The notes beneath the pieces were generated by a model, which worked only from the letters and a program-made list of their open reading frames with translations, did not search any database and was not told where the DNA came from. Of a DNA stretch of 64,000 nt, positions 5,774 through 58,303 are shown in pieces (position 1 is the first letter of the stretch; each line of letters begins with the position of its first letter). The position numbers were made by a program, and so were the translations under genes. The stretch lies in NCBI GenBank assembly GCA_943788815.1, contig CALSRS010000001.1:1487501-1551500 (forward strand), in the 5' to 3' direction. The stretch comes from an uncultured Gammaproteobacteria bacterium (GTDB lineage: Bacteria; Pseudomonadota; Gammaproteobacteria; Eutrophobiales; Eutrophobiaceae).

Positions 5774-5775
5774 TC

Positions 5776-6375: not shown

Positions 6376-6424
6376 GGTATTTATCCTGGCAATGGTTCTC
6401 TGAAAGTCATTTAAAGTATAATTC

Positions 6425-7396: not shown

Positions 7397-7484
7397 TACT
7401 TGCACTTTTTTCGGTAAATTCTATATATATTGACAATTTGCGGATAGACGCATAAGGTCTTTTTTCCGGTTAAATTCCGAAATT

Positions 7485-9503: not shown

Positions 9504-9509
9504 TCATAC

Positions 9510-9543
9510 AAAAAAAGGAGGAACACAGTTCCTCCTTTTTTTT
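9510..9543 (+). terminator. Rho-independent terminator after amidohydrolase
   Basis: AAAAAAAGGAGGAAC-ACA-GTTCCTCCTTTTTTTT; perfect stem ending in a T run. Confidence 0.88.
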
Positions 9544-9640
9544 ACTCTGTAATGACTGTTCAGATTAATTTTGACTAATTGTTTTCGAAATTTTTTCAGA
9601 ACTTAATCTGTTAATTGCAGGGATACCACTCTATGCAAAA

Positions 9641-9870
9641 TCTAGCATTATTGATGGAGAGTAAATGAGTACTCCGATAGAAGATCTGGATTATTTATAA
9701 TGATTGATGGCAAAACTGCCCAGAAATCTCCTGGATTTTGTGGAAATATCTTGCGTTTTAATACAGACACTGCACAGTGAACAATTAATATGCAAATACC
9801 AACTATTTTATGGCGATAGCTAGAACCACCTGTGATTCCGCCGTATCTACAAGGTACAAACGATTTTTTT
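9641..9870 (+). pseudogene. Relic of a YtcJ-like amidohydrolase C-terminus
   Basis: Reads IIDGE*MSTPIEDLDYL (frame 2) then MIDGKTAQKSPGFCGNILRFNTDTAQ*TINMQIPTILWR*LEPPVIPPYLQGTND (frame 1), aligning to VILNGNYMDTSNEELDQL and ISGKAAYEAPELRGNTFRFNTDSADWTINMVTPTSIWRWTDVPAVPPFLNGANGY. Stops at 9662-9664, 9778-9780 and 9817-9819, plus a frame change near 9700. Confidence 0.88.
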
Positions 9871-9921
9871 AGTACAGTATTTAAAAATATAACGGTAAAA
9901 ATAAGTTATTAAGGAGGGGGC

Positions 9922-11898
9922 ATGCAATACATCAATAAAATTCTAATTACTATTTTCACTCTTACGATATTTGGTCATAGCTATGCAGGAGTAGCGCCTT
10001 ACGCGGATACTGTTATTATCAACGGCGAGGTTATTACTGCTGATTCTAATGATCCCGAGCAAGTTACCATTGCACAGGCTATCGCAATTCAAGGAGATAA
10101 GATCCTGGCGGTAGGCAGTAATGCTGAAATCCAGGCCCTCGTTGCTGACTGGACTGAAGTGATAGACGCCAAAGGAAATACCGTCACACCTGGCTACATC
10201 GATACCCACAATCATATCTATGAAACCTCTACGGGTTTCCCCTGGGTTGTAAATTCAATTCCGGATTTACTGGAAGTCAGGGTCGGTGGCAGCAACCCCG
10301 AAGAGATGGCAACGAATGCCCTCAATGCAATAGGCGCCAGGGCCAGACAAATACCAGAAGGAAAGTGGATACGGATAAATATGCGGCCTCCTCAGGTTGC
10401 GGTACCCATCCTGATAAACAATATTATCAACCGTGACATACTCGATAATATCTCTCCTAATCATCCCGCCTATGTTACTACTCGTGGTGGAACAATACTA
10501 AATAGCAAGGCGCAAGAAGCCTTTGCACATCATTATGGAAATCCATTGCCGGATGATTACTGGATGGATGGGGGACCAGAAAGAGGGTGGTCAGGTGAGT
10601 ACACTGACTTCGGACGTTGTTCCAGCCTTGATCTTATAGGCATGCAAGACCAGGAAACTTTCAATAAATATATTCAGGGTTATTTTGAAGTCATGCAGGC
10701 AAACGCACAGATAGGTGTCACCACCTATAAAAGCCATATTCAGTGTGAATCTGGGTTTAGTGCAACCAACCACATGGATCGCAATGACATGATGCCTATC
10801 CGTATGGCATGGGACCATCGATGGCTGCAACCTTTCTCAAACAGTATCAAGGAATCCTATCGACGTATAGGTGACTGGGTAGGGCACGGCTCTGACATGT
10901 TCTTTAGTACCGGAAGTAGCGTCGGTGGTATTGATGCAGGTGGTGTCGGCTGGTGTACCGCCATGAAGGCCAAGAGTGCAGAAATAAAAGCCCGGGAACA
11001 GTGTCCTCCAGCACCAGAGGGTATTGAATTAAATGCGTGGCAAGGAAGGACGCTTGAAGGTGGTGGTATAGACGGAGGAATTACAGCAAACCGAGGTAGA
11101 CGCACAGAGCATCTTGTAACCTTAGCTGAATTGGCAGCCGAAGGACGCATAAGTAACATACCTGGCTGGCATTCATCAGGAGATGGCGCAACTGAAATAA
11201 TGATGAAGACTTATCGTTCGTACATGAGTGATGAGCGGATCCGTATGCTGCGTACCACTAGCGATCATTGTCACTCAGTAACACCGGAGGAAATAGAAAT
11301 AGCCTCACGGACAGGTCATACCTTTTCTTGTGATGCCACAGAAGTACCCACACAGATCATTAAGGAAGGTTATGGTGAAGAATATTTAACCTGGAATGCA
11401 CCTCTTGCCAGTATGATAAATGCGGGTGTCAATGCCGTCATCAGTCAGTTTGGGATTGAAAGTGGATTGCGAGATTCCCCATTTGAGGATGGCGTCATGT
11501 GGCTGACGCGTAAAATAAATGGCGAAACCTGGGGTGTGCCTGAAGAAGCTATACCCGACAAGATGTCACTGATGTTGATGATGACCCGGCGCGCTGCCTA
11601 TCCCATTTGGAAAGAAAACGCATTGGGATCCATAGAGCCCGGAAAGTTTGCAGACATCGTAATATTAAATGGCAACTACATGGACACATCCAATGAAGAA
11701 CTTGATCAACTGACTTCTATCCTGACCTTGATAAGCGGAAAGGCTGCATATGAAGCACCTGAGTTACGCGGTAATACTTTTCGATTCAATACTGATAGTG
11801 CTGATTGGACAATTAACATGGTAACGCCAACATCAATATGGCGATGGACAGATGTGCCCGCAGTCCCGCCGTTTCTCAATGGTGCAAATGGTTATTAA
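9922..11898 (+). CDS. YtcJ-like exported amidohydrolase
   Basis: 658 aa; signal peptide, YIDTHNHIYE, SIEPGKFADIVILNGNY; paralog of 7485-9503. Confidence 0.88.
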   Translation: MQYINKILITIFTLTIFGHSYAGVAPYADTVIINGEVITADSNDPEQVTIAQAIAIQGDKILAVGSNAEIQALVADWTEVIDAKGNTVTPGYIDTHNHIYETSTGFPWVVNSIPDLLEVRVGGSNPEEMATNALNAIGARARQIPEGKWIRINMRPPQVAVPILINNIINRDILDNISPNHPAYVTTRGGTILNSKAQEAFAHHYGNPLPDDYWMDGGPERGWSGEYTDFGRCSSLDLIGMQDQETFNKYIQGYFEVMQANAQIGVTTYKSHIQCESGFSATNHMDRNDMMPIRMAWDHRWLQPFSNSIKESYRRIGDWVGHGSDMFFSTGSSVGGIDAGGVGWCTAMKAKSAEIKAREQCPPAPEGIELNAWQGRTLEGGGIDGGITANRGRRTEHLVTLAELAAEGRISNIPGWHSSGDGATEIMMKTYRSYMSDERIRMLRTTSDHCHSVTPEEIEIASRTGHTFSCDATEVPTQIIKEGYGEEYLTWNAPLASMINAGVNAVISQFGIESGLRDSPFEDGVMWLTRKINGETWGVPEEAIPDKMSLMLMMTRRAAYPIWKENALGSIEPGKFADIVILNGNYMDTSNEELDQLTSILTLISGKAAYEAPELRGNTFRFNTDSADWTINMVTPTSIWRWTDVPAVPPFLNGANGY

Positions 11899-11911: not shown

Positions 11912-11944
11912 ATCACACCCGGTACAACCGGGTGTGATTTTTTA
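11912..11944. terminator. Putative bidirectional terminator between convergent genes
   Basis: ATCACACCCGG-TACAA-CCGGGTGTGAT followed by TTTTTAAA; lies between the amidohydrolase stop and the convergent gene stop. Confidence 0.78.
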
Positions 11945-12901
11945 AATCATTAGACGGGCAAAAATTAAGGATATCGTCAAAAAAAGACCTAGTAGTATTG
12001 CCGCTGTCTTATCAATATCCCCTATACCAGAATCGGCACCACCAATAAATTGTAACATCCTGTTGACTGAATCTGGCGATTCAGCCCTGACGTATAAACC
12101 CCTATGTGAATCGATTTGTGATAGCTGCATCATAGTATCGACATTAGGGACCGTAAATAACTTGCCACTCATGGGAGTGAAGTGCAAAAATTCACCGAAC
12201 TCACCATACTCTGGGACACCTTCATTTTCCCCAAGCAAACCTGTCTGCAGGGTGACCATGTCAAATGTACCCGCCTCTACTTTTTCTACGGCATATTCCA
12301 GATAAGAATAAGGCAAGGTATCTTCACCATCAGAGATAAGAATGCCAATCTTATGGCTTTTATCTCTTAAGTTCTGGGGTAATGTATTAAAAGAACCTGC
12401 CAGTGAATTGATTGCAGCCTCAATACTTGTGCCGGTGCTGGTGAATAATTCTGGCGAGATCACAAACTCCAGCATTTCTGTAATTTGTGCAATATTACTT
12501 TCCCACCCAAGTATAACCTGAGCTTTTTCTGTAAATCCAATCATGGAAACAATGATATTTTCCTGACGATCTTCCAGCTCCTGGAAGAGTTCAAACAACC
12601 TCTTTCGACCGCGTTCAAATCGTGTTTCATTTTCTTCATTTAAAGATGGCTCTGGAATCGCAAGCATGCTGGGTGAAAGATCAAATGCGATTGAAATTGC
12701 AATGGGGTCTTCATTCAGACTGTAACTATAGTTGGGTCGATCATTTAATGTTGACCAGATAATTAAACCCAATCCAGCTATAACAAGACCCAGGACATAC
12801 TTCGAAGGTTGATTGTAATTTAGATCTTCTGACCTATAGGTTAATACTAGCCAGTATATAACTATCGCCAAACCTGCAACGATTGTAGCTCCAACAATCA
12901 C
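11942..12901 (-). CDS. mxaL: VWA-domain membrane protein, MxaL-like
   Basis: MIDAS motif DLSPSM, N- and C-terminal TM segments; last gene in a MoxR/DUF58/x/VWA/x/VWA array matching mxaRSACKL order. Confidence 0.65.
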   Translation of the reverse strand: MIVGATIVAGLAIVIYWLVLTYRSEDLNYNQPSKYVLGLVIAGLGLIIWSTLNDRPNYSYSLNEDPIAISIAFDLSPSMLAIPEPSLNEENETRFERGRKRLFELFQELEDRQENIIVSMIGFTEKAQVILGWESNIAQITEMLEFVISPELFTSTGTSIEAAINSLAGSFNTLPQNLRDKSHKIGILISDGEDTLPYSYLEYAVEKVEAGTFDMVTLQTGLLGENEGVPEYGEFGEFLHFTPMSGKLFTVPNVDTMMQLSQIDSHRGLYVRAESPDSVNRMLQFIGGADSGIGDIDKTAAILLGLFLTISLIFARLMI

Positions 12902-12916
12902 AACCTTACCTCTTTC

Positions 12917-13834
12917 CTAGAAATTTGGTGGCGCAGATGAAATAACTCCTCTTTCTCCCTCTGCTTCACCAGAGCCATCCCCGGCGACCGGGGCATTCAC
13001 TTCCTGTGAACCTCTATCCAGAGACAACAAGTATTCAAGAAAGAGTTTAGGCTGACCATAGTCAGGATTTCTTCTCAGGCTTTCTTTTAGTGCCTGTATT
13101 GCTTGTTGGTAATAATCAAACTGGCCTTCGGATTGAAATGCATCAAATAACATTCTTGCCTGGGCATAATGGACTACTGCCAGAAACTCATCATCTACCT
13201 TCATATTTTCAAGGTCATTAAATAAAGCATTAGCTGAGCTTCTGTCGCCAACCAATGATAGATACACACCATGATTAAACATTAAGTTCTTCTCTAATGA
13301 ACTACCTCTTTTAAGAAATGCAGCCGTGGGCTGCAGATACAAAGGAGGACTGTCAAGCCTGTCAATTATGGGTTGATACTGATCTGAATATAATATTTTT
13401 AAATCAGATACACCTTTTTTTAATAAGGCCAGGGATTCTTCACCCAGAGGACCCTCTGGTGCATTCAAAGCATCAGTTATTCGAACGAATTCCTCTATTG
13501 TTGCAATCTTATCTTCCAGAAATTCTCCTATAAACCTTTCATATATCTGCACAATCTCTTTTTTGTAATTTTCATCTTGAGATATACGTCTAAGATCACC
13601 AAGATCATTCAATACTTTATTTGTAAAACCATTTGTTGCAACCTCATCAACCAGGTGATCAAGACTCTGATTTGCTGAGTCCAATTGTGGATTGAAATAT
13701 GAATAAAATCCGTAAGCCTGAAACCCGGCAATGATAGTTATTATTCCCAGGGCTCTGAGTAAGCTTGGGGATTTCTCAACAATACCACTACGAAATGAAC
13801 CTGCATCATTCCCCGTGTTATCCGAACTGTTCAT
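12917..13834 (-). CDS. mxaK: MxaK-like membrane-anchored protein (TPR-like C-terminus)
   Basis: One N-terminal TM then helical repeat-like region; lies between the two VWA genes. Confidence 0.55.
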   Translation of the reverse strand: MNSSDNTGNDAGSFRSGIVEKSPSLLRALGIITIIAGFQAYGFYSYFNPQLDSANQSLDHLVDEVATNGFTNKVLNDLGDLRRISQDENYKKEIVQIYERFIGEFLEDKIATIEEFVRITDALNAPEGPLGEESLALLKKGVSDLKILYSDQYQPIIDRLDSPPLYLQPTAAFLKRGSSLEKNLMFNHGVYLSLVGDRSSANALFNDLENMKVDDEFLAVVHYAQARMLFDAFQSEGQFDYYQQAIQALKESLRRNPDYGQPKLFLEYLLSLDRGSQEVNAPVAGDGSGEAEGERGVISSAPPNF

Positions 13835-14880
13835 AAATTGCCTCCCTTAAAATATTTCCGGCCTGTACTCGGATGAAAAAACGTTCCCACTAGAAACAAC
13901 CACAGGATGATTAGAACCTGTGCAGACTGAAGAAACGGCCTGGAAAGGTCTATCCTCTCACGTCTGGTTTCTTCATAACTGTATCCTTCCAGCCTACTTA
14001 TGTCTCTTAGTGTATTTTCCAGATTGCTGGCATCTAGATTTTCTATCGTAACCACATTGCCAACTGTTCTTGCAAAACTTAGAAATTTTTCTACTTCTTC
14101 ATTGGACATATCATTTTCATCTGTTGTAATCCAAAGTAAATAAAATGAAATGCCCATGTTCGCAAGTCTTGTTAATTGCTGTTCAACATCTTTTGTGTAC
14201 GCAGCTTCAGCATCTGTCAACAAAATAACCGCTTTTTTGTTTTGTTGTGGATATCGATCAAACAAGTTCAGACCTGTTTCCATTGCCAAGGCTATGTCCG
14301 TACCCCAATTAACATATTCATCCATAGAAGCAAGTTGCTCCACAACAAAATCAATATTTGCTGTCGGTGCAGACATAGTAAATGCATTATCATTAAAAAA
14401 TATCATGCCTACTCTGTCCTGGGCTTTCCTTTGAGACAGAAAACTCAGCAAGCTTTCTCTCGCCAACTCATACCTTGCCAACATTGGTAGAGAATTCGGG
14501 TCATCTACCGCCGTAGAAAAAGTTCCAGCACGTCGCTCAAACATCAGCTCCAGATCTTCTCTATTCACATTAGTATCATGTCTCATTGAACGTGAGGTAT
14601 CAAAAATCACAAGGAAATCCCTGGCACGCTGATCTACAGTAATGCTTCTTATTACTGTCGGCTTCATCAACACAATAATTATTAGACCGAGGATCAGTAA
14701 AGTAATAATGACCGGCAACTTGTCCAAAATACCTTTATTAGTAACTGTGTTACTTATCAACATCATGTCTGGAAAATGTGCGGGCTTTTTATAAAACCAC
14801 AAACTGATGAAAACAATAGTTGCAATAACACCTAGCCATAATGGCCATATTCGATCAAAGGATATACTTTCCCAATCCAC
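13831..14880 (-). CDS. mxaC: VWA-domain membrane protein, MxaC-like
   Basis: MIDAS FDTSRSM, three TM segments; 4 nt overlap with the next gene. Confidence 0.65.
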   Translation of the reverse strand: MDWESISFDRIWPLWLGVIATIVFISLWFYKKPAHFPDMMLISNTVTNKGILDKLPVIITLLILGLIIIVLMKPTVIRSITVDQRARDFLVIFDTSRSMRHDTNVNREDLELMFERRAGTFSTAVDDPNSLPMLARYELARESLLSFLSQRKAQDRVGMIFFNDNAFTMSAPTANIDFVVEQLASMDEYVNWGTDIALAMETGLNLFDRYPQQNKKAVILLTDAEAAYTKDVEQQLTRLANMGISFYLLWITTDENDMSNEEVEKFLSFARTVGNVVTIENLDASNLENTLRDISRLEGYSYEETRRERIDLSRPFLQSAQVLIILWLFLVGTFFHPSTGRKYFKGGNL

Positions 14881-14893
14881 CAGCCTGATTCTC

Positions 14894-15904
14894 CTAGCCT
14901 CGAGAATTAACGGAAGCTGAAGTTATAGCTGAAAATCGGCTAACATATTCCTGACGTTTTTCTTTATTGATTCCTTCCTGGTTCAGCACATCAATAAAAA
15001 ATTCACGAAATTTCTGGTTCTGATTACCTGCTTTTTGGTCGCTGATCCATTCATAAGGGTTTTCGCCCAGCTCATCCAGGCTGTACCAGGTTGCACTCCG
15101 TCTAAGCAGGTCGGAATACTCCTCGTCTGAAATATTATCACTGGCAGAACTAATCCGATCCAGAATACTCTCCCAGCGTGTATTCATACGGTTTCTGGAT
15201 TCAGTTCTTCGCATCCCATTGCTGTTTGTCAGTAATACTGGAAAGAAACTCACCAAAAGAATCAGGCCACCAGCAAATATAGGCCACATACTCGCTGCTT
15301 CATCTTCAGGCACGCCCATAGACGTTGGATAACCACTGTTCCCCAGGTAAGCAGAAAGTTCGTCCAGACCACCTTCACCCCTGATATCCAGGGCCTGCAT
15401 TACGACGATATGAGATGGAATTGTATTAAACCTGACTGATTTGTTATTAACTACGTTGCCACCACCATCAATTATCTGGTATCCAACAGAAAAAACTGGC
15501 AGCTCATACAACTTATTACCTCTGCAGCTGGTTAACTCTCCTGGACAATCCAACACCTGGAAGTTAAAAGTACTGCGAACAATTGATTTCCCATCAGCCA
15601 GGTTTTCCTGAGTTACCTCAGGTCTATCAATTAAACTAATTCCTTTTTCTGAGCCCCAGCTCCTTTCAAATAATTGTTCATCCAGATTTTCAACAATCAC
15701 TTCGCTTGCAAGAAATTCAGCTTCTATGGTCAGCGATATACTGTCTCCAAGATTAACTGGTTTTTTTCCTGCCTCTGCAATTCCTGAACGAACTATAATA
15801 TAGTCATCCTCATAAACTTCGGGGACATATTCGTAAGCAATCAGGTTTATGGAAAATAACATCAATATAGATAAAACAATTTTCTGTTTTGTAAAAGTCG
15901 CCAT
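14894..15904 (-). CDS. mxaA: MxaA-like exported/membrane protein
   Basis: Signal peptide, beta-rich periplasmic region, one TM and cytoplasmic tail; assigned mainly by position. Confidence 0.55.
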   Translation of the reverse strand: MATFTKQKIVLSILMLFSINLIAYEYVPEVYEDDYIIVRSGIAEAGKKPVNLGDSISLTIEAEFLASEVIVENLDEQLFERSWGSEKGISLIDRPEVTQENLADGKSIVRSTFNFQVLDCPGELTSCRGNKLYELPVFSVGYQIIDGGGNVVNNKSVRFNTIPSHIVVMQALDIRGEGGLDELSAYLGNSGYPTSMGVPEDEAASMWPIFAGGLILLVSFFPVLLTNSNGMRRTESRNRMNTRWESILDRISSASDNISDEEYSDLLRRSATWYSLDELGENPYEWISDQKAGNQNQKFREFFIDVLNQEGINKEKRQEYVSRFSAITSASVNSRG

Positions 15905-15906
15905 AA

Positions 15907-16818
15907 TTAATTTTTCCTACGTCTTCTTATTCTTGCTAATTGTGCTAATTGCGGATAAATGTTTCGTTGATTATTAATAACCATACAATCCATACCAACT
16001 GATCTAAATGTATTCTTTAAGGCCTCTACCCGTTGTTTCTCTTCTAAATTAATTTTTCTTACACGTGACGATGAAAACCAGGTCAGCCTTCTTGTTTGTC
16101 TTTCCGGGTCCCATACCTTCAACATTCCGCCAATCCCAGAACCAACCTCAAAACTTATAATTACCGGTATCAAATTGTGTCGCAAACGGTTTATGACCTG
16201 TTGCAATTTTGCATCGAGGTGAAAATTTTTATTCTGCATAGACACAAAATCCGAAACCAGAAATATTAAATCTGGCACATTTCGACTTACCTTATGCATG
16301 TAGTTTTTCAATACCATTGAAATATCTGTCTCATTGTGCACGACAATATTTGAAAGTGACCCACTTAGTCGATCCATTTGTGTTTTAAGATTTGCAGCTT
16401 TAATCTCGTTATGCAATTCTGAACTGAACAGGATAGTCCTGACCACATCGCCAGCACGCCACAGTGAATAAGTTAATTGCATGATTGCCGCATTTCTTAA
16501 TGAAGATTTAAATGGGATGTCCATTGATGCAGAGGTATCGGCCAGAATTGTTATGGAGGATTGAGCCTCTTCTTCCCACTCTATGACCTGCCTGTCCCCA
16601 GGCGGACTGAATTTATCAATATCTCTGGGATTATCTTCACCTTGCAGGAATTGACGTGTCCGTAGATACCTTAATCCGCTACCTGCTCTCCCCAGTGGGT
16701 GCCGACCTGGTAAAAATTTCAGAGGCGACAACTTTATAGGCATTAACACGCCGAGTGCAAGTAGTGCGTCTCTGTCTATAACAGACGGGTCACGTTTATG
16801 CCGAGGTGTTATATGCAT
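15907..16818 (-). CDS. mxaS: DUF58-family protein, MxaS-like
   Basis: GSGLRYLRTRQFLQGEDNPRDIDKFSPPG and MIDAS-like LADTSASMD; downstream of and overlapping the MoxR ATPase. Confidence 0.7.
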   Translation of the reverse strand: MHITPRHKRDPSVIDRDALLALGVLMPIKLSPLKFLPGRHPLGRAGSGLRYLRTRQFLQGEDNPRDIDKFSPPGDRQVIEWEEEAQSSITILADTSASMDIPFKSSLRNAAIMQLTYSLWRAGDVVRTILFSSELHNEIKAANLKTQMDRLSGSLSNIVVHNETDISMVLKNYMHKVSRNVPDLIFLVSDFVSMQNKNFHLDAKLQQVINRLRHNLIPVIISFEVGSGIGGMLKVWDPERQTRRLTWFSSSRVRKINLEEKQRVEALKNTFRSVGMDCMVINNQRNIYPQLAQLARIRRRRKN

Positions 16819-17815
16819 ACCCTCTTTCAGAAAGAATCATATTAATAACATGGGACATATCAACCGGGTAAGTGGTCTCCAGTCTATGGTTAAGTATTGG
16901 TACCGCAGAAGCAAAAACATCGTATGGAACAACGTGTTTTCTTCCATGAAAAAATGCATGGGCACGTAAAAATGGAGGCCAAAAACTGGTTGTCCTTGAG
17001 CTTGCCCCACCAGCAGGACTAATTACTTCTTTACCAAGCCCTGAATTATCGAAAACATCTGAAGGATATGATGGATCACTCCGTCTAGTTGCAACTGTAA
17101 TCGCATTCATCAGGTGAACTATTGAATCTGATATTTCAATTTCGTTCTGGATCATGTCCTGAATTTCAGCAAACTCATAGCGAGAAATAACAGGACTGAT
17201 ATTTTTCAGGTTCTCCTGCAAAGAAGCCTTTGCCTCACGTGCAATCTGGAATTCAATTTCACGAGGTGAGAATGTCCATTCAATCTTTACCATGAACCTT
17301 TGTTTAGCAGCGGCATCCAGTTCCCAGGTACCTTCGTGTGATAAAGGGTTTTGTGTTGCAATAACATGGAACGGTTGAGGTAATTTATGTGAGCTACTCC
17401 CGATAGTAACCTGATGTTCCTGCATGGCTTCCAGTAATGCGGACTGGGTCCTGGGGTCAGTTCTGTTTAATTCATCAAACAAAACGATATTGTTAAATAT
17501 TGGTCCTTTTAAAAGTTCAAATCGATCCGCACCTTCTGATGCAATTTCTGCACCCAGCAAATCTGAAGGCTTCAAGGTAGGTTGACCCGATATCCTGCCT
17601 GCCGACATGCCATCGATCGATGCTGCCAGTGTTGTAGATAAAAGTGTCTTTCCCTCGCCTGGGACTGATTCCAGAAGCACGTGGCCTTTTGCCATTAATG
17701 TAATCACCAGGAGATCAACCCCCGTTTCGTGCCCTTTGACTACCTTTCCAAGGTTATCTCTTAAATCATGGGTTAATTTAACTGCACTATCAAAGTCCAT
17801 ACTATTCTCTCTCAT
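16796..17815 (-). CDS. mxaR: MoxR-family AAA+ ATPase, MxaR-like
   Basis: LLESVPGEGKTLLSTTLA Walker A, NIVLFDELNRTDPRTQSALLEAMQE Walker B, FHVIATQNPLSHEGTWELDAAAKQRFM. Confidence 0.8.
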   Translation of the reverse strand: MRENSMDFDSAVKLTHDLRDNLGKVVKGHETGVDLLVITLMAKGHVLLESVPGEGKTLLSTTLAASIDGMSAGRISGQPTLKPSDLLGAEIASEGADRFELLKGPIFNNIVLFDELNRTDPRTQSALLEAMQEHQVTIGSSSHKLPQPFHVIATQNPLSHEGTWELDAAAKQRFMVKIEWTFSPREIEFQIAREAKASLQENLKNISPVISRYEFAEIQDMIQNEIEISDSIVHLMNAITVATRRSDPSYPSDVFDNSGLGKEVISPAGGASSRTTSFWPPFLRAHAFFHGRKHVVPYDVFASAVPILNHRLETTYPVDMSHVINMILSERGYAYNTSA

Positions 17816-18338: not shown

Positions 18339-19682
18339 TTAGCTTATGATTATTGGTTCCAGCTTTCTTCTTCCCAACCTTTGTGCGCCATTTTCAGTAA
18401 TTAATACGCCATCTCCGATCTGTGTACTGGGTGTTTCAAGACCTGGTATAGGTACACGAGGCTTAATGGAGAACACCATTCCCGGTTCAATAACCAGATC
18501 ACTATTTTCGTCATCACGTGACCATCCCATCCTGGGCCCATCTCCCAAAGCGCCACCAGTGTGAAACACCACACCTACATAAGGTTTACCACCAACCTTT
18601 GCAATACGCTTGTCGACTTCTTCTTTGTAAAAAAGACTGTAGTCAGCAAATGTCCTGCCCGGTTTTGCCCAGTCAAGCAGTGATTCAAATAATTCCATGT
18701 TATATCGGAAGGTGGATTCCCAATTTGCTGGTTCTGGACGACCAACACACATAGTCTGATTGACCTGCAGGTTATAACCTAATACCTGAGCAGAAAGGGT
18801 CTCACTTAAAATTTGTCCTGATTGAATAATCTCGTTTAGTGGTTTTCCATTTGCGGTATTTCCCTCTGCACCTGCACGAATAGTAATCCTTCCGGGTTGT
18901 TCTCCGGATGCATCCAGATAAGCCTTTGCAATAGCGAACCAAACATCTCTTTGTGGCACGCCAGGCGCCGCTGTCTCCACCGACGCTTTTATTCCCAGCT
19001 CTGCTATCCTGTTGGACAAACGTAATGCCTGAATTTCCTCTGGACCACGGGATAATTTTATCCGCATTAATAGATCCGAGGCTGATTCAAACCTAATCCT
19101 CGGAAATTCCTGCTTCAGGCGATTGATCGTTGTATAACTCGCGCCACCTTCATCGTTTCTTAATGTTCCTGACAGATTTCCGACGCCAATGCGGCCACTG
19201 CTTATCCCTGCTTTTTTAATAGCATTAATAATCAGTTCAGAACGATTGAGCTAACCAATATCAACTTCAATATCACCCTGCATGAATCCTTCTATTTCAT
19301 CGTCTTCATCACCATACCTGTAGATGGCTGTAGGTTTACCGGATTGAGGAAAGACCACCCAGTCAGGACCCGATTCTGTCAGCCACTTCACATCCGCGTT
19401 TCCTTCGGGTCGCATAGGAACTAGCAAGGCATCAAAATCATATCGACTCATCCACTCTCTGCATTTTTTCCAACGTCTGCGCATCTCATTTAGCGAAAAG
19501 CCTTTAGGCATATTGTCTGGCGTTAATTCATCTATCCCTGAAATGTCCAGTGTGCTCCTGGCAACTGATTCTGCGCTGGTCGAATTTGAATAAATAGAAA
19601 GGCCAGTCGAAACTGAAACCGCGGCTGATGAAATTATAAAATCCCGTCTTTTAATATTATGTGAGTCATGGCTAGAAGACAT
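18339..19682 (-). pseudogene. Tat-exported M24-family (Xaa-Pro-type) metallopeptidase interrupted by one in-frame TAG
   Basis: ORFs 19251-19682 (Tat-like KRRDFIISSAA signal) and 18339-19067 are in the same frame. Readthrough of the TAG at 19251-19253 gives ...QGDIEVDIG*LNRSELIINAIKKAGISSGRIGVGNLSG...MRIKLSRGPEEIQALRLSNRIAELG..., a continuous M24 domain. Confidence 0.8.
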
Positions 19683-19731: not shown

Positions 19732-20772
19732 TCATTGAATACGAAAAACTATATAACCGTTCCTCTGTTCGAATGATGCAGTTTGGGCTTCAGGCGGCAT
19801 AATCGGAGTTAAATCAATACCAAGTATTTGACCTCGGTACACTTCTCGCTGAATATCAGGGTCATTGGGATCCAATGGCATTCCATCCATAAAAATTCCT
19901 TCAATACGATATTGAAATTTTGCAGGGCCGGTTCGCTCAAGTTGCCCTACCGTCAGCAGATTATAACTATCTCTGGATGATCGGATTTTGGCAGAAAAAT
20001 TTACATGATCTGCTCGTATATAAAATTTTGCATCTTCAATAAATGGAAATCCATCGCCACCAACCAGTGCATTCAATACTTCTTCTTGTAATAACCATGC
20101 ACCACTAAACTCTTCAGACTGGTTGAGCACTTCGCCTATGCCTAATCCTGTGATCTTTGTCTGGGCCCAATTGAAAAACAGAGTGAATGTTGTACCACGT
20201 AGCACTTCCCAGTCTTCAGCAATGCGATAAGCAATATAAGGTTCTGCGAAGGGGGATACAAGGCCGCCTGGTATTCTTGACATTCTTTCATCACGAGCCT
20301 GGGACGCTATCTTGAACGGCTCAAGTAAAGAGGCATAACGTCTTAAGGAATCCTCCTTGCCTTGTAATTGCTCGTAGGATTCTGATAGTTCTGTAAGTGA
20401 CTCCAGATCTTCGCTCAAGCGTTTTTGCATTAGTTCCGTGCTTGCCAGTACATCAATGGGATCCTGTGCCCCAGCCCAAAGCGCGCCAATTGCACTACCT
20501 GCATAGACATCATAAAACCGCATTCTTCTAACTGCAGTATCTGCCTGGTTATAGTATTCCGCCCTGGCCTGTTCCACTTCTGGCTCCAGCCGAGTAATTC
20601 TTTCACCCACACTATCCAGTTGTTGTTGTAGCAAGCGAGTACCGGCAGAAGGTTCATCCATGTCCTGGACAAAATATGCAAATACACCTGAGAGATGTGC
20701 AAATACTGGAGGTGCCGATGCTGCAAGCAAGATAAGAAAAACCAGAAATAATTTTGGAATAGACTTAATCAT
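19732..20772 (-). CDS. Exported coiled-coil protein with EnvC/PcsB-like helical N-terminus and uncharacterised C-terminal domain
   Basis: Signal peptide; long helical segment with ...LQQQLDSVGERITRLEPEVEQ...GALWAGAQDPIDVLASTELMQKRLSEDLESLTELSESYEQLQGKEDSL...; no LytM or CHAP motif in the C-terminus. Overlaps the FtsX-like gene by 4 nt. Confidence 0.6.
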   Translation of the reverse strand: MIKSIPKLFLVFLILLAASAPPVFAHLSGVFAYFVQDMDEPSAGTRLLQQQLDSVGERITRLEPEVEQARAEYYNQADTAVRRMRFYDVYAGSAIGALWAGAQDPIDVLASTELMQKRLSEDLESLTELSESYEQLQGKEDSLRRYASLLEPFKIASQARDERMSRIPGGLVSPFAEPYIAYRIAEDWEVLRGTTFTLFFNWAQTKITGLGIGEVLNQSEEFSGAWLLQEEVLNALVGGDGFPFIEDAKFYIRADHVNFSAKIRSSRDSYNLLTVGQLERTGPAKFQYRIEGIFMDGMPLDPNDPDIQREVYRGQILGIDLTPIMPPEAQTASFEQRNGYIVFRIQ

Positions 20773-21644
20773 TTATTGCTCTTTGCAATTGCCCTTTGAC
20801 TTGCCAGGCCACCACCCAGTAAACCCAGAACTGGTCCGGTCACCAAAACAATACCAATTACCATCATAGGCGAACTTAACTGGCTGGACATAAATGGCAT
20901 CAATGCAATGATTATGCCCTGTATTACTTCACCCAGATATAAAAATACCGCTCCAGCTAGTATGGACGAAAACAATCCCAGCAAAAATGCTTCAATTAGA
21001 AATTGAGCTCTTATTCCCCAGGGGCCAACACCTACCCAGTGCTGAATCTGTATTTCTACTTCCCGATTTAGTACCGCAAGTTGCATCGCTGTCAGACTCA
21101 TTAATACGGCAGCGATAAAAAAACCGATAATGAATATTATGCCGCCCCTTTGTATGCCGTTTGAAATCTTGTACAGGATCTGGGCAAATCCCTGACCCCA
21201 TACGACATCACCAACACCCTCCAATGTTCGAATCTGTGAGACGGTCTCATCTGCCTGATCTGGATCTTGAAGTTCAGCGGAAAGGCTGTCAGAAAATGCG
21301 TCAGCAGGTAAAGCATTCATCAGTGTTTCGCGCCCAAATACCGGCGCAAGACGTTCATAAGCTGATTCACCGGCCAAAATCTCCACACTACGAATACCTG
21401 ATAGTGATTCAATTAAGGGAGCCAGTGTTGTAGCCGGAGTTCCTTCAGCAGGAAATATTCTTATCTGGACCTGACGTTCAAGGAGGCTTGCTACCTGTGC
21501 CAGGTTGGCGTTCAACCAGAGAAAACCTCCAAACATTAATAATGTAAGTGTCAGTAATACCACAGTCGCGATACTTGCCCAGGTATTTCTTGCAATCCCC
21601 TCTCTTGCTTCTCTGAGGCGGTAAAAAATGGCCCACATATTCAT
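20769..21644 (-). CDS. FtsX-like ABC transporter permease
   Basis: N-terminal TM, extracytoplasmic domain (QVRIFPAEGT...GIRSVEILAGESAYERLAPVFG), three C-terminal TMs; FtsX topology. Confidence 0.78.
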   Translation of the reverse strand: MNMWAIFYRLREAREGIARNTWASIATVVLLTLTLLMFGGFLWLNANLAQVASLLERQVQIRIFPAEGTPATTLAPLIESLSGIRSVEILAGESAYERLAPVFGRETLMNALPADAFSDSLSAELQDPDQADETVSQIRTLEGVGDVVWGQGFAQILYKISNGIQRGGIIFIIGFFIAAVLMSLTAMQLAVLNREVEIQIQHWVGVGPWGIRAQFLIEAFLLGLFSSILAGAVFLYLGEVIQGIIIALMPFMSSQLSSPMMVIGIVLVTGPVLGLLGGGLASQRAIAKSNK

Positions 21645-22343
21645 TCCTTAGTCTCCTCGCCTTGCTCAGACCAGTAACCGCCGGTAGCATCGCTGATCAC
21701 ATTTCCTTGTTGTAGTCTGATTACCCTTCTACCTAAGCGGTTTACAACATCCACGGCATGGGTTGCAAATAAAACCGTCGCCTTATGCTCCTGATGGAAG
21801 CGATCGAAAATATTGAGGACCCTATCAGTATTTTCTGGATCCAGATCACCTGTTGGTTCGTCTGCAATGATTAATTTAGGTTCATTGATCAATGCCCTAC
21901 CAATCGCGACACGTTGTTGCTCACCGCCAGACAACTGTCCTGGCAACCTGTGTGATTTATCTGCAAGACCGACAAGATCCAGGATCTCCTTGGTCCTTTT
22001 CCTGACTTCCTTGGGCGGCGTTGCTAACACTTCTGCGCCGTATGCAATATTTTCAAACGCGGTTTTTTTCTCAAGCAATCTGAATGACTGGAATATAATT
22101 CCCATAGATCGTCGAAGACGACTACCATGGATATTAGACGTATCCATTCCACCGACCAGAACCTTGCCTTTATCGGGGACCTCTTCCTTATAAAGGAGCT
22201 TAAGTAATGTTGTCTTACCCATGCCTGAGGCACCAACCAAAAATGCCCAGTCTCCGGAATCTATTTTTAGAGATACATCATCTAAAGCGGTAAAACCGGC
22301 GGCCTCATAACTTTTATAAACATGATCTAGTACAATTTCGATG
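21641..22343 (-). CDS. FtsE-like ABC transporter ATPase
   Basis: Walker A GASGMGKTT, signature LSGGEQQRVAIGRAL, Walker B LIIADEPTGDLD. The frame extends upstream of 22240 as IEIVLDHVYKSYEAAGFTALDDVSLKIDSGDWAFLVGASG; start codon non-canonical or uncertain. Confidence 0.83.
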
Positions 22344-22367
22344 ACGGCTCACTCCCTTACTTTAAAA

Positions 22368-23246
22368 TCAGGATCGCTTACTCCTGAAAAACAGTATTAC
22401 TCCCAAAACCAATACTGCAGCAATCAGGCTATATAATAGTGTGTGATTGCTTGCGACCTGTGTTTGAGACCCATTTGAATTATCCAGTACAGCTGATGCT
22501 GTTGTACCCGTTGCTGTCACTGCTTGCACTGGTTCTGCTTCAAGGTATATCCAGAGGGTAAAATCACCCAGCTGTTTTAAAAATGACCTACGGACAACCC
22601 TTCCACTCCACTGAATCAGGTCTGTAGGACCATTGGCTACGCGACCATGTGTATAAAGCGGAAAGGTTTCGTTCGCCACTGTAATATAGTAGGAACTTCC
22701 TCCATCAGGATTTAATCGAGACTCTACCTCAGAGATTTCTCCTGTAGGCCCAACACGCATACCTCTGCGGTCCAGTAATGTTTCACCATTAATGTCTGAA
22801 GTTAGATTGTTGGCAATAAAATTTGCGGCCTCTTCTTTAGATGGGACAGCTTCAGTATTTTCTGGTATCAGCTGCCCTTTAAATAAAACATTATTAATAT
22901 CCTGATAAGTTGCACTACCTTCGATCTCTTCAAGCAGCCCCTCTGTCAGAGCAAGCTCCGAGAGTTTTTTCATATCAGGCGTTTCCCCACCTTCGGCAAG
23001 TCCTGAAGCCAGAACAGCCCAGGCGGCAAGGTCACTTTTACTTAACTCAAGATCCGGTTCAAAAACAGGTGTTTCAGGAATTATTCCGGCGCCTACCAGC
23101 AGAACAATTTCAAATTTTGAATCTGAAAACTCAATATCCGGGAATTGACTAGACTCATTTTTTATATGCGCCACAGTGCTACATGAAAATAAAAATAATA
23201 TTATTGGAATCATGTCCCTTAATAAATTTTTAAAACCAAAGACCAT
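22368..23246 (-). CDS. SLH-like exported protein with C-terminal TM anchor
   Basis: SLH-like FPDIEF...FEIVLLVGAGIIPETPVFEPDLELSKSDLAAWAVLASGL; C-terminal TM and RSKRS tail; paralog of 23305-24042. Confidence 0.6.
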   Translation of the reverse strand: MVFGFKNLLRDMIPIILFLFSCSTVAHIKNESSQFPDIEFSDSKFEIVLLVGAGIIPETPVFEPDLELSKSDLAAWAVLASGLAEGGETPDMKKLSELALTEGLLEEIEGSATYQDINNVLFKGQLIPENTEAVPSKEEAANFIANNLTSDINGETLLDRRGMRVGPTGEISEVESRLNPDGGSSYYITVANETFPLYTHGRVANGPTDLIQWSGRVVRRSFLKQLGDFTLWIYLEAEPVQAVTATGTTASAVLDNSNGSQTQVASNHTLLYSLIAAVLVLGVILFFRSKRS

Positions 23247-23304
23247 CTAATACATCATCCTTTATTATTATAATTACTTAGTTATATTTGACTTACTTGA
23301 ATGA

Positions 23305-24042
23305 TTAATGCCCAACATCCCCTGCCTCTAGAAAAACCCATAATTGAAACTGCCCCAGGTTGCGAACCACGCTTCGTCTCACCATTTTTCCTTTCCACTG
23401 TTTCAGGTCTACAGGACCATTGGCCAGTTTACCATGAGAGTAAACAGCATAGGACTCCTCTCCTATAGTCAGATACATCGTACTTCCTCCGTCCGGATTC
23501 ATTTTAGACTGAACATCTATCACCATGCCGGTAGGCCCTAAATGCATCTCCCTACGAGACAGTAGTGATTCTCCGTTAATACTAACTTCAAGATTTGCAA
23601 CAATAAATTCTGCGGCTTGTGTACGTGTTGGCATGGTTTCAGGAGAGTCAATTTGTAAGCCTCCATCAAATAGTACCTGGTTGATATCGTTGTAACTTGC
23701 ATTACCGTTAAGATTATCAATTAAGCCTTTATCCATAGCAGTTGATGCTATTCCCTTGATATCCACTGCTTCTCCTGGCGCAGGAACTACCAGCCCATGT
23801 GCCAAAGCTCCCCACACTGCCAGATCGCTTCTGGAAAGATTTGTATCTGGATTAAACTTGTCAGTTTCTGGCACGATACCTATCCCTACAAGCAGGATTA
23901 CATCAAACCGTGCACTTGATCCTTTAATGTCCGGGAATAATGTTGACTCATTGGTAGTATGCGCCAGACCTGAAGTACTAAAAAAACTTAAAAATAAAAT
24001 AAAAATTAAGTTATTAAAAAATATATTTGAAGTTTTCATCAA
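23305..24042 (-). CDS. SLH-like exported protein
   Basis: FPDIKGSSARFDVILLVGIGIVPETDKFNPDTNLSRSDLAVWGALAHGL; collinear with the adjacent paralog; overlaps the HEAT gene by 4 nt. Confidence 0.6.
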   Translation of the reverse strand: MMKTSNIFFNNLIFILFLSFFSTSGLAHTTNESTLFPDIKGSSARFDVILLVGIGIVPETDKFNPDTNLSRSDLAVWGALAHGLVVPAPGEAVDIKGIASTAMDKGLIDNLNGNASYNDINQVLFDGGLQIDSPETMPTRTQAAEFIVANLEVSINGESLLSRREMHLGPTGMVIDVQSKMNPDGGSTMYLTIGEESYAVYSHGKLANGPVDLKQWKGKMVRRSVVRNLGQFQLWVFLEAGDVGH

Positions 24043-25586
24043 TCCTGGCTCCCAATCTGATTTATTTTTTCGAGCGCATCTTCTGCGGCACGACTAACTG
24101 CAGGATTCTCATCATCCACAATCTTCTCAATTTCACCTTTCACAGAAATCGACAGATTCCCAAGATTGCCTAGTGCAATAACTGCGGCTTTTCTAACTGG
24201 TGCCTGCTCATCTGATAAAGTTGATACCAGAGAAGTAATCACATTGGTATTTCCTTTTTGATGTTGCCCCAATGCCAGGGCGGCGACACCTCGTACCTGC
24301 CATTCATCATCATTCAAAGCCTCTACTAATGGTGCTATTGCAGCTTCATGGTCTGATCCCACAACTCCAAGGGCTCGCGCCGCTGCCCAGCGTACAGTCC
24401 AGCCAGTGGCTAACAATATTTTCTGGGATGCCTCACTCTCTGCATCAATCACTTCGCAAAAACCAGCATCGACTGCTGTTGCAGCTGTTCCCAGGGCATC
24501 AACTGCTTCATAGGCATCCGATCCCATCTGCTCAAGGGCAAACGCAGCTGCCTCACAGACCCTTGAATCACCATCTTTAAGTGCTGAAGCAAGAGCTGCA
24601 ATACTCTGTCTTCTTATCTCTTGATTATCTGTACCCAGGGCACCCAATGCGCGCGAGGCAGACCATCTTACCACCCAGTCGGCATCATCTAATGCAGCAG
24701 TAAGAGAAGCAATGGTCTGATCGCTAATATCGCTATTACCCAGGTCTTCACCTATGGCCCATAAGGCCCTGGCAGTAGACCATTGCACCTGCATTACGTT
24801 ATCAGCCAGTGCCATAGACAACGCTGGAATGGCATCTACCGCGCCAGCACCCATTGCACCTAAAGCGCGGGCAGAACCCCATCGCACCGGGACTGAATCG
24901 TCTAGTAAGCCATCTATTAATACGGGAACAGCGGGCGTTCCGATTCTAGATAGTGACTCAACCACCTGTTCAATCACTCGCCAGTCTGGATCGCGTAATT
25001 GTGATGCCAGTGAGGACACTGCAGATTCAGCATCATTTCCAAGCTTACCAAGGGCATGTGCAGCCGCAGCACGCATCTCCCAATCTTGATCTGTCAATGC
25101 TTGTATAAGTTCTGGTAAGGCTATTTTACTATCCGGCGCTAAACCTGAGAGTGCAAGCAATGCTGCTTTTCGAGTATTCGGTAATTGGGAAGATAATTTT
25201 TCTTTGATGTCAGATATAGATCCCGCTGCAGTCGATCTAAGTGTGCCTAATGCCAGCGCTGCCCTTCTGCGAACGACCCAATCTGTATCATCCAATGCTG
25301 TTATCAAAGCAGATATAGCGTCAGGAGATCCTTCCCCTACGCCCTCCAGAGCTCGCACACTTGCCCGCTTTACTTCCTTATCGACATCTGACAGTAACAA
25401 CACCAATTTTGGAATCGCCTTACTTCCTTGCGTCCCGGTCGTTGCCAGGCTTTCGGCAGCATCTCGACGGGCCGTCCAAAGCGGATGATCAAGCGCTACA
25501 ATCAGCCTGTCGACATCGACTTCTGCGAATACCGGCTGAAATGACAGCAGCAAAATTATGGTTAAGACTGATCTAATATTAGTCAT
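24039..25586 (-). CDS. Exported HEAT/PBS-lyase-repeat protein
   Basis: 515 aa, signal peptide, many repeats such as DDTDWVVRRRAALALGTLRS, DQDWEMRAAAAHALGKLGN, DDEWQVRGVAALALGQ. Confidence 0.85.
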   Translation of the reverse strand: MTNIRSVLTIILLLSFQPVFAEVDVDRLIVALDHPLWTARRDAAESLATTGTQGSKAIPKLVLLLSDVDKEVKRASVRALEGVGEGSPDAISALITALDDTDWVVRRRAALALGTLRSTAAGSISDIKEKLSSQLPNTRKAALLALSGLAPDSKIALPELIQALTDQDWEMRAAAAHALGKLGNDAESAVSSLASQLRDPDWRVIEQVVESLSRIGTPAVPVLIDGLLDDSVPVRWGSARALGAMGAGAVDAIPALSMALADNVMQVQWSTARALWAIGEDLGNSDISDQTIASLTAALDDADWVVRWSASRALGALGTDNQEIRRQSIAALASALKDGDSRVCEAAAFALEQMGSDAYEAVDALGTAATAVDAGFCEVIDAESEASQKILLATGWTVRWAAARALGVVGSDHEAAIAPLVEALNDDEWQVRGVAALALGQHQKGNTNVITSLVSTLSDEQAPVRKAAVIALGNLGNLSISVKGEIEKIVDDENPAVSRAAEDALEKINQIGSQD

Positions 25587-25660: not shown

Positions 25661-26524
25661 TTATGGCTTTTCATATATCCTTGAATCCACTGAGTTACTA
25701 AACTCAATTTTAGAAAAAAATGATTCATAGTGAATATTGCCATCCGGCCTAAACAGGGTCCGTATATGCTCACGGTTAATTCCACCAACCTTTTTTATAT
25801 TTTTATATAGCAGGGTTTCATAGGTCCCATCTCCGTGGTGTGAAAAATAGACTTTTACAAGATCTCCATTTTCTGCAAAGTGAAAGAAATACTCCTCACC
25901 ACCATGGCCATGTCCGCCGCCATGTTCACCCTCGGCCTGATGCTCAGAATTTGCATTGTGGTCATTCCCTGAAGAATGATCGCCATGCGCATCAGCATGT
26001 CCTGAAAAATATCTGTCAGCCGGTCCCTGATCATAGGTAATTTTCAATACCTCTGTTTTCTTTCCATAATAACTGTCGGTCCCTGAGTACTCTAAGCCAT
26101 CTAGATCACTTTCCAGCACAAATGGTAGTGAAAATCTGAAGTAGGCATCTGAGATGACTCTTCTAGCCTCGCGAACTTCGTCATCATCACCTGGCTTACC
26201 ATCAACCGTTGCCCAAAAATCCATTCCATCCCAACCATAAACAAGAGTTCGCCCTTGCCTTGATAGCTCAATGCGGTAGCCACTGCCATCCGTATTCATG
26301 GTGTGTGTCAAGTCGACGACGACTACCCCACCCTCTTCATAACGTTTTTGAAATTCATGAACAATAAGGGCGCCATTGTCATGCCAGGTTGACCCTCCCC
26401 CTGCCTGAGAAATAGCCTTATTAATGATCGATTCAACCTGGTCATGAGATTGCGCGAACACACTTGAGAATGGCACCAGAGAAACGAAGACATAGATGCC
26501 TAACTTTAATATTTTATCTTTCAT
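25661..26524 (-). CDS. Exported protein, possibly LolA-like fold, with His-rich insertion
   Basis: Signal peptide; HADAHGDHSSGNDHNANSEHQAEGEHGGGHGHGGE in mid-protein. Confidence 0.5.
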   Translation of the reverse strand: MKDKILKLGIYVFVSLVPFSSVFAQSHDQVESIINKAISQAGGGSTWHDNGALIVHEFQKRYEEGGVVVVDLTHTMNTDGSGYRIELSRQGRTLVYGWDGMDFWATVDGKPGDDDEVREARRVISDAYFRFSLPFVLESDLDGLEYSGTDSYYGKKTEVLKITYDQGPADRYFSGHADAHGDHSSGNDHNANSEHQAEGEHGGGHGHGGEEYFFHFAENGDLVKVYFSHHGDGTYETLLYKNIKKVGGINREHIRTLFRPDGNIHYESFFSKIEFSNSVDSRIYEKP

Positions 26525-26559: not shown

Positions 26560-28716
26560 TTATTTTGCTAATGGATCTGGCCGCATTTGGAAATGAACTA
26601 CCAAAGGTTTAGATCCCTTACCACCTTCATAATGAAAAGGAGTTCTATCACCACTAGGCACCCATAATCCACGCCCTTTCCAACTGGCATCAGGATCATC
26701 TATTCGTCCCTCAAACCCCTTAGTATAAAATCCCAATGGGTAAGGGACACGTAGTGTCATAAAACTCTCGTCCTTGAACACATGAATTCCATCATGCAAA
26801 TTCCCCGTTACCATGGGGACATTTTCTCCAATACCCAGTGAACCTCGCTGGTCTACCCAGGTATAGTAACTCGATTCGACACTGCTATCTTCAAGACCAA
26901 CGAAACCTGGACCCGGCAAATCATGGAAACTCCAACCTTCTGGACAATGGTCACCTGTGGCCCGGGGTCCATTCAATGGGCCCTGGCACTTGCGACGATC
27001 AAATTGCCCCAGATGACCGCTACCCATGGACAACCAAACCACACCATTACGATCAATATCAGCGCCCCGGTTGGCAAACCCAGGCATAGGTGGCCGATAA
27101 ACTTCACTTAATCCCGTTGCAGGGTCAAAGCGCACGATTCCACCTCGCCAATCACTACTCACACTGGAATACCAAACTGAGCCATCCGCCGGGTTAGGCA
27201 TCACCGCATAGGTATCTGCGATTATCCTTTTATCTTTAGCTGGATCCACTGGCTCATCGGGTTCTACCCATTCATCTACCTCACCATTTCCATTAGTATC
27301 AAGGATAAAGGGAGACCAGCCAATTGCCGCCTCAATATCACCAGTCTCTAAAAAGACCCTGGTCTTCACCCAACCCGCAACAAAATCATCACCACTGGTC
27401 CATAAGGTATTGTCCGGATCTTCTGAAAAATGCAGATGATGAGTATCGAAACAAGTATCAACAAAGGTGTATTCTCCGGTATCCGGTTCATAGAATGACA
27501 ACTGTCGTCTTGCTTCAGGAGTGGGATAAAGCTGAGCGGAAGGATGACTTGATCCTGCCTGGCAAAAATCCGGATTTTCAGGTGCCCGTATTCTTGCCGT
27601 ATACCAGACCCGCCCATCCTGATCCAGCATGGGATTATGGGCATTGGCCCTGGCATCCCATAACTTTTCGTCCCCCCAATATGCGGATGGGGCATTCACT
27701 GGATCGTCTGCCGCAGAAGGCGTGTCATCATCCCTAACCGGGGCTGTAAATGTACGAGACGTATTATTTACAGGATCCAAAATCGGAAATTCATCAGTAC
27801 TGAATTCCGGTGCACCGTAGATTTGACCATAGGCATTAACCGTGGGGTCACGGCGGTCAGTACCTGAAAGATCATGTAAATAGGCCGTAGGACTAGACCA
27901 GTCCCTGACGGTGAGCACAAGATTTCTTTCCATACCTGCCGGCCGTTCCGGTATGGTGTGAGGCAGTTCTCCAGCTTCAATACGATCAGTCCAGTCTGAC
28001 AGATATTTAAATGCAACACCTAGTCTTGCGGCCCTGGCTAGCATAGAGTCGCCGGCCTGACCTGAGGACATACGCCGCATCCAGGCTTGTTCAGTGGATT
28101 CAATATCAGCAAACATTTCCGGGATAACCCGGGTAGCCCGATTACCAAGCTGGTGGCAAACAATACATGCCCTGTTTTTCATATTAGCCATATATTCATT
28201 CAAGCCACCATCAAGATGGGCGACTTCTGCTGCACCAGGGACCTTCATCATTGAATACCAATATGCAGCTGGGTATATCTCGGCCGCTGATGCCGCATCG
28301 GGAGCTATAGGTGCTAACAGGTTAAGCTTGTTTCCTGGTGTTGTCTGAGTTTTTGCAGAATCCACCAAACCGTAACCACGCACCCATACTTCGTAACTAG
28401 CGTCAGGCAAATCCGGGATTAGAAACCTTCCTTGATCATCGGTAACGACAATCTTCGCATATCGGGTTTCAAATTCATCCGTCTCGGCTATGACCCAGAC
28501 ACCAGCCTCAGCCCCATTGGCGCTGGTCACCATTCCTGCAATATCATCACTATCAACTGGAATGGAAGGTGCAGAAACCGGATTGACTGCTTGTGATGGT
28601 GGTGAAACTGAATTCGTATTATCCATCTGGGATTCAGGTGTACCACTGTTGCATGATGCGATCGCCAAACAACTACAAAGCAAAAATATTCTGTATATAT
28701 TGCAAGTTTTTACCAT
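26560..28716 (-). CDS. Lipoprotein with carboxypeptidase-regulatory-like domain, CxxCH heme motif and beta-propeller-like C-terminus
   Basis: Lipobox AIASC; DDIAGMVTSANGAEAGVWVIAE...; CIVCHQLGNR heme-type motif; Vgb-like C-terminal pattern. Confidence 0.65.
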   Translation of the reverse strand: MVKTCNIYRIFLLCSCLAIASCNSGTPESQMDNTNSVSPPSQAVNPVSAPSIPVDSDDIAGMVTSANGAEAGVWVIAETDEFETRYAKIVVTDDQGRFLIPDLPDASYEVWVRGYGLVDSAKTQTTPGNKLNLLAPIAPDAASAAEIYPAAYWYSMMKVPGAAEVAHLDGGLNEYMANMKNRACIVCHQLGNRATRVIPEMFADIESTEQAWMRRMSSGQAGDSMLARAARLGVAFKYLSDWTDRIEAGELPHTIPERPAGMERNLVLTVRDWSSPTAYLHDLSGTDRRDPTVNAYGQIYGAPEFSTDEFPILDPVNNTSRTFTAPVRDDDTPSAADDPVNAPSAYWGDEKLWDARANAHNPMLDQDGRVWYTARIRAPENPDFCQAGSSHPSAQLYPTPEARRQLSFYEPDTGEYTFVDTCFDTHHLHFSEDPDNTLWTSGDDFVAGWVKTRVFLETGDIEAAIGWSPFILDTNGNGEVDEWVEPDEPVDPAKDKRIIADTYAVMPNPADGSVWYSSVSSDWRGGIVRFDPATGLSEVYRPPMPGFANRGADIDRNGVVWLSMGSGHLGQFDRRKCQGPLNGPRATGDHCPEGWSFHDLPGPGFVGLEDSSVESSYYTWVDQRGSLGIGENVPMVTGNLHDGIHVFKDESFMTLRVPYPLGFYTKGFEGRIDDPDASWKGRGLWVPSGDRTPFHYEGGKGSKPLVVHFQMRPDPLAK

Positions 28717-55930: not shown

Positions 55931-56006
55931 TCCTACTTTTTATTGTTGTAAGCAGATGTGTCCACTTATGTGTACATGTCATGTGGTTGTTACCTGGAGG
56001 TAATTT

Positions 56007-58292: not shown

Positions 58293-58303
58293 GAGGTAAA
58301 AAA

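Follow-up and report, generated by a model that had tools for sequence, protein, structure and literature searches.

A block of six minus-strand genes, located in a window of 64,000 nucleotides from an uncultured gammaproteobacterium of the Eutrophobiaceae (contig CALSRS010000001.1), is a real, genus-restricted and divergent FtsEX module that is fixed in all five genomes of its genus and has its own overlapping secreted partner. The block encodes a HEAT-repeat protein, two SLH-like proteins (SLH1 and SLH2), an ATP-binding cassette (ABC) ATPase (FtsE'), an FtsX-type permease (FtsX') and a secreted coiled-coil protein (CC), through which, by analogy with known FtsEX systems, ATP-driven mechanotransmission likely takes place. 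An output other than the cell wall, possibly metal handling, is favoured because hydrolase domains are missing, a canonical FtsEX-EnvC coexists in the genome and predicted N-terminal histidines occur in CC and the SLH-like proteins; a role in peptidoglycan turnover via a partner in trans is the main rival.

The block is a second FtsEX since the host genome (3.2 Mb in three contigs, 99% complete) contains elsewhere a canonical ftsY-ftsE-ftsX-rpoH cluster and a gpmI-envC-ctpA locus, in which an EnvC of 397 residues with an M23 domain is encoded between the gpmI- and ctpA-like genes; on this point the original prediction, made from the nucleotide sequence alone, is borne out. The same holds for its labels of HEAT protein, FtsE-like ATPase and FtsX-like permease: Pfam assigns HEAT_2 (PF13646) to the first in nine stretches above cut-off (E=4e-71, 235.7 bits), ABC_tran to FtsE' (E=1e-34), and both FtsX_ECD (PF18075; 2.8e-8, 34.7 bits versus a cut-off of 23.5) and FtsX (PF02687; 5.5e-7, 30.1 versus 25.5 bits) to FtsX'. 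The NCBIfam equivalog cut-offs are missed by FtsE' (238 of 264.85 bits, TIGR02673) and by FtsX' (116 of 255 bits, TIGR00439; 141 of 225 bits, NF038347); by these profiles the two proteins are related to cell-division FtsEX, yet not at the equivalog level.

FtsX' shares 23-24% identity with the host's own FtsX, and its top PDB match is 8idb (E=1e-15), an FtsX of the M. tuberculosis type. In a maximum-likelihood tree, subject to a long-branch warning, FtsE' groups with Gram-positive FtsE (100/100) and is separated from the family's 30 canonical FtsE sequences; the FtsX tree, under the same warning, agrees loosely with it, and BLAST and PDB searches also place Gram-positive FtsE and FtsX nearest. 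Because branches are long in both trees, the result speaks against a recent origin by duplication of the host's ftsEX, which the FtsE tree rejects within the limit of those branches, and does not designate a donor.

The six genes overlap by 4 nt at the HEAT/SLH1 (24039-24042), FtsE'/FtsX' (21641-21644) and FtsX'/CC (20769-20772) junctions, exactly where coordinates and overlaps had first been described, and are separated by 58 nt between SLH1 and SLH2 and by 25 nt between SLH2 and FtsE'. In the window, no ATG, GTG or TTG start precedes the Walker A motif of FtsE', and an in-frame stop lies just upstream of an ATC; in all FtsE' orthologues a Shine-Dalgarno site is followed, at 8-9 nt, by the string ATC-GA-AT(C/T)-GTA, and this conserved non-canonical ATC (22340-22342) is likely the start codon.

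The distribution of the block is narrow. Within the family, CC was found in only 5 of 53 genomes (18 genera), all five belonging to the host genus, and is absent from the 48 genomes of the 17 other genera; the SLH profile gives the same genus-only distribution. Two FtsX copies are present in 5/5 host-genus genomes; almost every other genome of the family has one, the exceptions being three with none and G316 with two. The profile searches covered Pseudomonadota, and in the several hundred genomes sampled from the class and phylum no relatives of CC, SLH or FtsX' were found beyond two chance matches, weak hits of the CC profile to a CpoB/YbgF-like coiled-coil protein and to an out-of-frame stretch over hypAB-like genes (L102 and L103). 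A peptide-pattern scan of GTDB contigs retrieved one relative (90%), no CC relatives were found in plasmid and viral collections, and no description of such a block was found in open-licence papers.

Across the genus, the order is 25661-like gene, HEAT, SLH, SLH, FtsE', FtsX' and CC, followed by MoxR, DUF58, orphan, vWA, orphan and vWA; it is kept in five genomes at about 40-90% protein identity, with the block split over two contigs in one of them (G280), and a chance arrangement is therefore discounted. The original prediction had named a gene order restricted to close relatives as grounds for abandoning it, and this is the distribution found, the block being confined to one genus in all genomes sampled. 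The upstream gene, the downstream MoxR-DUF58-vWA operon and the N-terminal histidines described below are additions to that earlier picture.

CC had been likened to EnvC and PcsB; in architecture the likeness finds support in a predicted hairpin, best conserved at its tip, and in sequence it finds none. An AlphaFold model built on a two-sequence alignment (predicted local distance difference test, pLDDT, ~42) places helices at residues 43-99 and 105-164; a linker helix then leads to a C-terminal domain rich in beta structure. Overall, 64% of the columns are invariant, and the longest invariant run, of 24 residues (96-119; nt 20416-20487), falls at the turn between the two predicted helices. 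FtsX contacts EnvC at residues 114-128 and 141-160, and the X-lobe of FtsX is the EnvC-binding site in E. coli (PMC7668044). In FtsX', the segment 95-121, of X-lobe length, aligns ungapped to the host's own FtsX with 23 of 27 residues invariant; together with the invariant CC tip it supports, by comparison of sequences, an inferred FtsX'/CC contact.

Homology of CC to EnvC is rejected by hhalign (probability 0.2%), and alignments to the Gram-positive FtsX partners are no better than those of a generic coiled coil, as judged with shuffled alignments. A Foldseek search with the CC model (pLDDT ~42) gave no match at E<=0.001, and the template modelling scores of ~0.2-0.3 to Vipp1 and PcsB coiled coils were treated as meaningless. 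Pfam, NCBIfam and PDB sequence searches with CC revealed no LytM/CHAP, NlpC/P60 or other hydrolase or activator domain, and the isolated C-terminal domain has no match by sequence in Pfam or PDB, in agreement with the earlier statement that LytM and CHAP are lacking. A likeness of this terminus to LmeA was considered and not confirmed by searches.

CC and the two SLH-like proteins share a trait at their predicted mature N-termini. The third-longest invariant run of CC, FAHLSGVFAYFVQD (24-37), begins at the predicted signal-peptidase site, in contrast to a signal peptide that is only 20% invariant; the predicted mature protein starts with His26 (nt 20695-20697), and the only other histidine of the window CC is His256 (nt 20005-20007), both being invariant in five species. 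Among the 12 sequences of the SLH-like family, which form three paralogue groups, histidine is invariant in exactly two columns, mature position +1 and His200. A conserved histidine at predicted mature residue 1, as in the histidine brace, is thus present in 5 CC and 12 SLH sequences. A third, unrelated secreted family, encoded beside a paralogous MoxR operon, has a histidine right after the cleavage site, one other invariant histidine and a C-terminal transmembrane segment; the first histidine is kept by a diverged paralogue (L101:8409-9125) that the window's genome carries elsewhere, and no relative was found in 320 other sampled Gammaproteobacteria. In a small background sample of about 50 unlinked secreted-looking proteins, drawn from 20-kb stretches, the window and related loci, none has histidine as best +1 residue and glutamine dominates.

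A conserved histidine directly behind the signal peptide binds transition metals by chelation and has served to find new metalloproteins (PMC12537917); combined with a second histidine, it makes up the copper histidine brace (PMC10952591). The N-terminal and further histidines of CC, SLH1 and SLH2 probably bind a transition metal, and the pattern points to metal binding, in place of or in addition to control of peptidoglycan hydrolases; from such motifs it is reasonable to infer that the block handles metal.

In the favoured mechanism, ATP cycling by FtsE' would move the periplasmic domains of FtsX', which would grip the tip of the CC hairpin as FtsX grips EnvC; the movement would be passed to the orphan C-terminal domain of CC and to the two SLH-like proteins, one of them membrane-anchored, instead of to a LytM/CHAP hydrolase or an amidase activator, and the secreted HEAT protein would scaffold the SLH-like proteins. 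Since the free N-terminal histidine and the further histidine probably bind a transition metal, the complex may act at the envelope in loading, moving or sensing a metal ion or a metalloprotein. As a whole, this reading of an FtsEX-type mechanotransmission complex acting via CC on SLH-like and HEAT proteins, with a metal-related envelope output, is given slightly less than an even chance; the bolder proposal, that an FtsEX-type ATPase/permease gave up the control of cell-wall hydrolases and now powers a periplasmic machine for metal handling, built of N-terminal-histidine (histidine-brace-like) proteins, is rather unlikely.

Several points weigh against the favoured mechanism. Signal-peptide cleavage was predicted from a simple motif; the second histidine of each family is paired with the first by invariance, their spatial closeness being at most a deduction; and the link to copper comes from the neighbourhood of one SLH paralogue in two genomes. 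The FtsX'/CC contact is itself deduced, and the models of CC and SLH2 (pLDDT ~42) are too poor for docking. Because the C-terminal domain of CC matches nothing known, it may conceal an enzyme fold, CHAP/LytM-like or other, of remote relationship.

The main rival is a second conventional FtsEX-partner system, in which the diverged C-terminal domain of CC would switch on an amidase or hydrolase whose gene lies elsewhere, with CC held at the wall by the SLH-like and HEAT proteins. To our knowledge, all characterised FtsEX complexes act on peptidoglycan hydrolysis; the Gram-positive FtsEX, to which FtsE' and FtsX' are closest, act directly on hydrolases, the SLH-like domains suggest contact with the cell wall, and CC is hairpin-like in its low-confidence model. 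However, the block contains no hydrolase or LytM/CHAP domain, the genome already has a canonical ftsEX-envC, and the N-terminal histidine pattern is left unexplained, all of which makes this alternative doubtful. The initial framing around peptidoglycan hydrolases misses the same histidines.

An extraction of lipids or lipoproteins of the LolCDE/YbbAP type, with FtsE'X' lifting a hydrophobic substrate to the C-terminal domain of CC and then to protein 25661, would draw on the type VII ABC class, to which LolCDE, MacAB and YbbAP belong (PMC12646458). The domain of CC predicted to be beta-rich after the helix and the conservation of 25661 with the block, as a secreted orphan, would suit such a route; it is made improbable by an FtsX' extracellular domain of the FtsX type (PF18075), with the X-lobe-aligned segment present, and by family and PDB sequence searches in which neither CC nor 25661 matches a lipid-binding family. 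A LolA/DUF6503-like resemblance of 25661 was likewise unconfirmed by searches.

Most improbable is a metal-cofactor maturation island, with the MoxR-DUF58-vWA operon as chelatase-like ATPase and the block as envelope half jointly maturing a periplasmic metalloenzyme: the two are adjacent in 5/5 genomes, N-terminal-histidine proteins occur at both MoxR loci and the known MoxR/vWA pairs CoxD/CoxE, NorQ/NorD and CbbQ/CbbO mature metalloenzymes, but a paralogous copy of the operon, MoxR to vWA, at another place in the genome (L046-L048) lacks FtsEX', so the operon works without it, a gap of ~500 nt separates CC from MoxR in three genomes and no client enzyme was identified.

As regards the other proteins, the two SLH-like products described in the original prediction are a paralogous pair (49% identity). 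Support for the SLH label is weak, with E<=1 in 4 of 12 family members and the best value (0.0027) below the curated PF00395 cut-off. His-rich tails are found on SLH1 orthologues in three of five genomes, and the His-rich insert of protein 25661 in 5/5. A third SLH-like paralogue (L030:3150-4004, L031:9931-10785) is inserted in a TonB-receptor operon; the locus encodes the TonB receptor and a MauG-type peroxidase, with a CopC-CopD fusion some genes further along. The window version of this operon (55496-60051) has no SLH-like paralogue; the receptor at L030/L031 seems to begin with AH after the signal peptide and the window copy with Q, and a TonB copper-receptor label for window gene 56007 is unsupported.

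The features are collected in the table. Only two genomes have the M24 gene, placed between CC and MoxR (intact in L009); three others (L014-L016) lack it. Upstream of the block in some genomes, not all, a secreted protein with a carboxypeptidase-regulatory-like domain and a CxxCH haem motif (CIVCH) is encoded (window 26560-28716). EamA transporters and Amidohydro_3 enzymes flank both MoxR loci (window 5150-11898; L046-L048), with paired cupins in the window and L046; to judge from gene content, these shared flanks suggest duplication of a larger island.

Table. Features of the block, its neighbours and the third N-terminal-histidine family (window positions unless a locus is named).
Feature	Position	Strand	Basis
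Secreted orphan bearing a His-rich insert; conserved upstream of the block	25661-26524	minus	
HEAT-repeat protein, secreted, 515 aa	24039-25586	minus	HEAT_2 (PF13646)
SLH1, paralogue of SLH2, no transmembrane segment; predicted mature N-terminal His28	23305-24042	minus	sequence comparison
SLH2, secreted; SLH-like and beta-rich domains, C-terminal transmembrane anchor; predicted mature His27, second invariant His200	22368-23246	minus	
FtsE', ABC ATPase; Walker A, signature, Walker B and H-loop intact	21641-22342	minus	ABC_tran
FtsX', type VII ABC permease with FtsX extracellular domain, 291 aa	20769-21644	minus	PF18075, PF02687
CC, secreted; predicted helical hairpin and orphan C-terminal domain, 346 aa	19732-20772	minus	
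M24 peptidase-type gene, one in-frame stop; not a core part	18339-19682	minus	
MoxR AAA+ ATPase, first gene of conserved downstream operon	16796-17815	minus	PF07726, 8.5e-45
Rest of MoxR operon: DUF58; orphan 14894-15904; vWA/BatA-like 13831-14880; orphan 12917-13834; vWA 11942-12901	span 11942-16818	minus	
Third N-terminal-His family	L046:4537-5217, L047:4483-5274, L048:13733-14500		

If the bolder proposal is correct, the block would be the first mechanotransmission ABC system whose output is the loading, transfer or sensing of a metal. A second, diverged FtsEX beside the canonical one, wired to orphan N-terminal-histidine proteins, would make the FtsX/coiled-coil coupling a reusable mechanical module, and the block offers a small and concrete protein set for the study of metal binding and FtsX-driven motion outside cell division.

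In comparison with known systems, the block shares with LolCDE, MacAB and YbbAP-TesA the ABC superfamily and the mechanotransmission principle (PMC12646458), but its extracellular domain is of the FtsX type and it has no matching periplasmic partners. Like E. coli FtsEX-EnvC, the block joins an ATPase and an FtsX permease, whose extracellular domain includes a segment of X-lobe length, to an adjacent secreted coiled-coil protein with a predicted hairpin-like shape; in contrast, CC has no LytM domain or detectable EnvC homology and bears a predicted N-terminal histidine, the block adds HEAT and SLH-like genes, and FtsX' diverges from an FtsX that coexists with it in a canonical FtsEX-EnvC. Gram-positive FtsEX (with PcsB, CwlO or RipC) are the nearest relatives of FtsE' and FtsX' by tree, BLAST and PDB search, whereas CC lacks CHAP, NlpC-P60 and M23 domains and the host is a gammaproteobacterium. 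Finally, CopC, LPMO, DUF4198, DUF6702 and Ang-1/2 have no sequence similarity to the proteins of the block, for which metal binding is predicted, and none is described with an FtsEX-type ABC system in PMC12537917 and PMC10952591; according to these papers, the histidine-brace and N-terminal-histidine proteins share with those of the block a histidine exposed by predicted cleavage, together with another conserved histidine.

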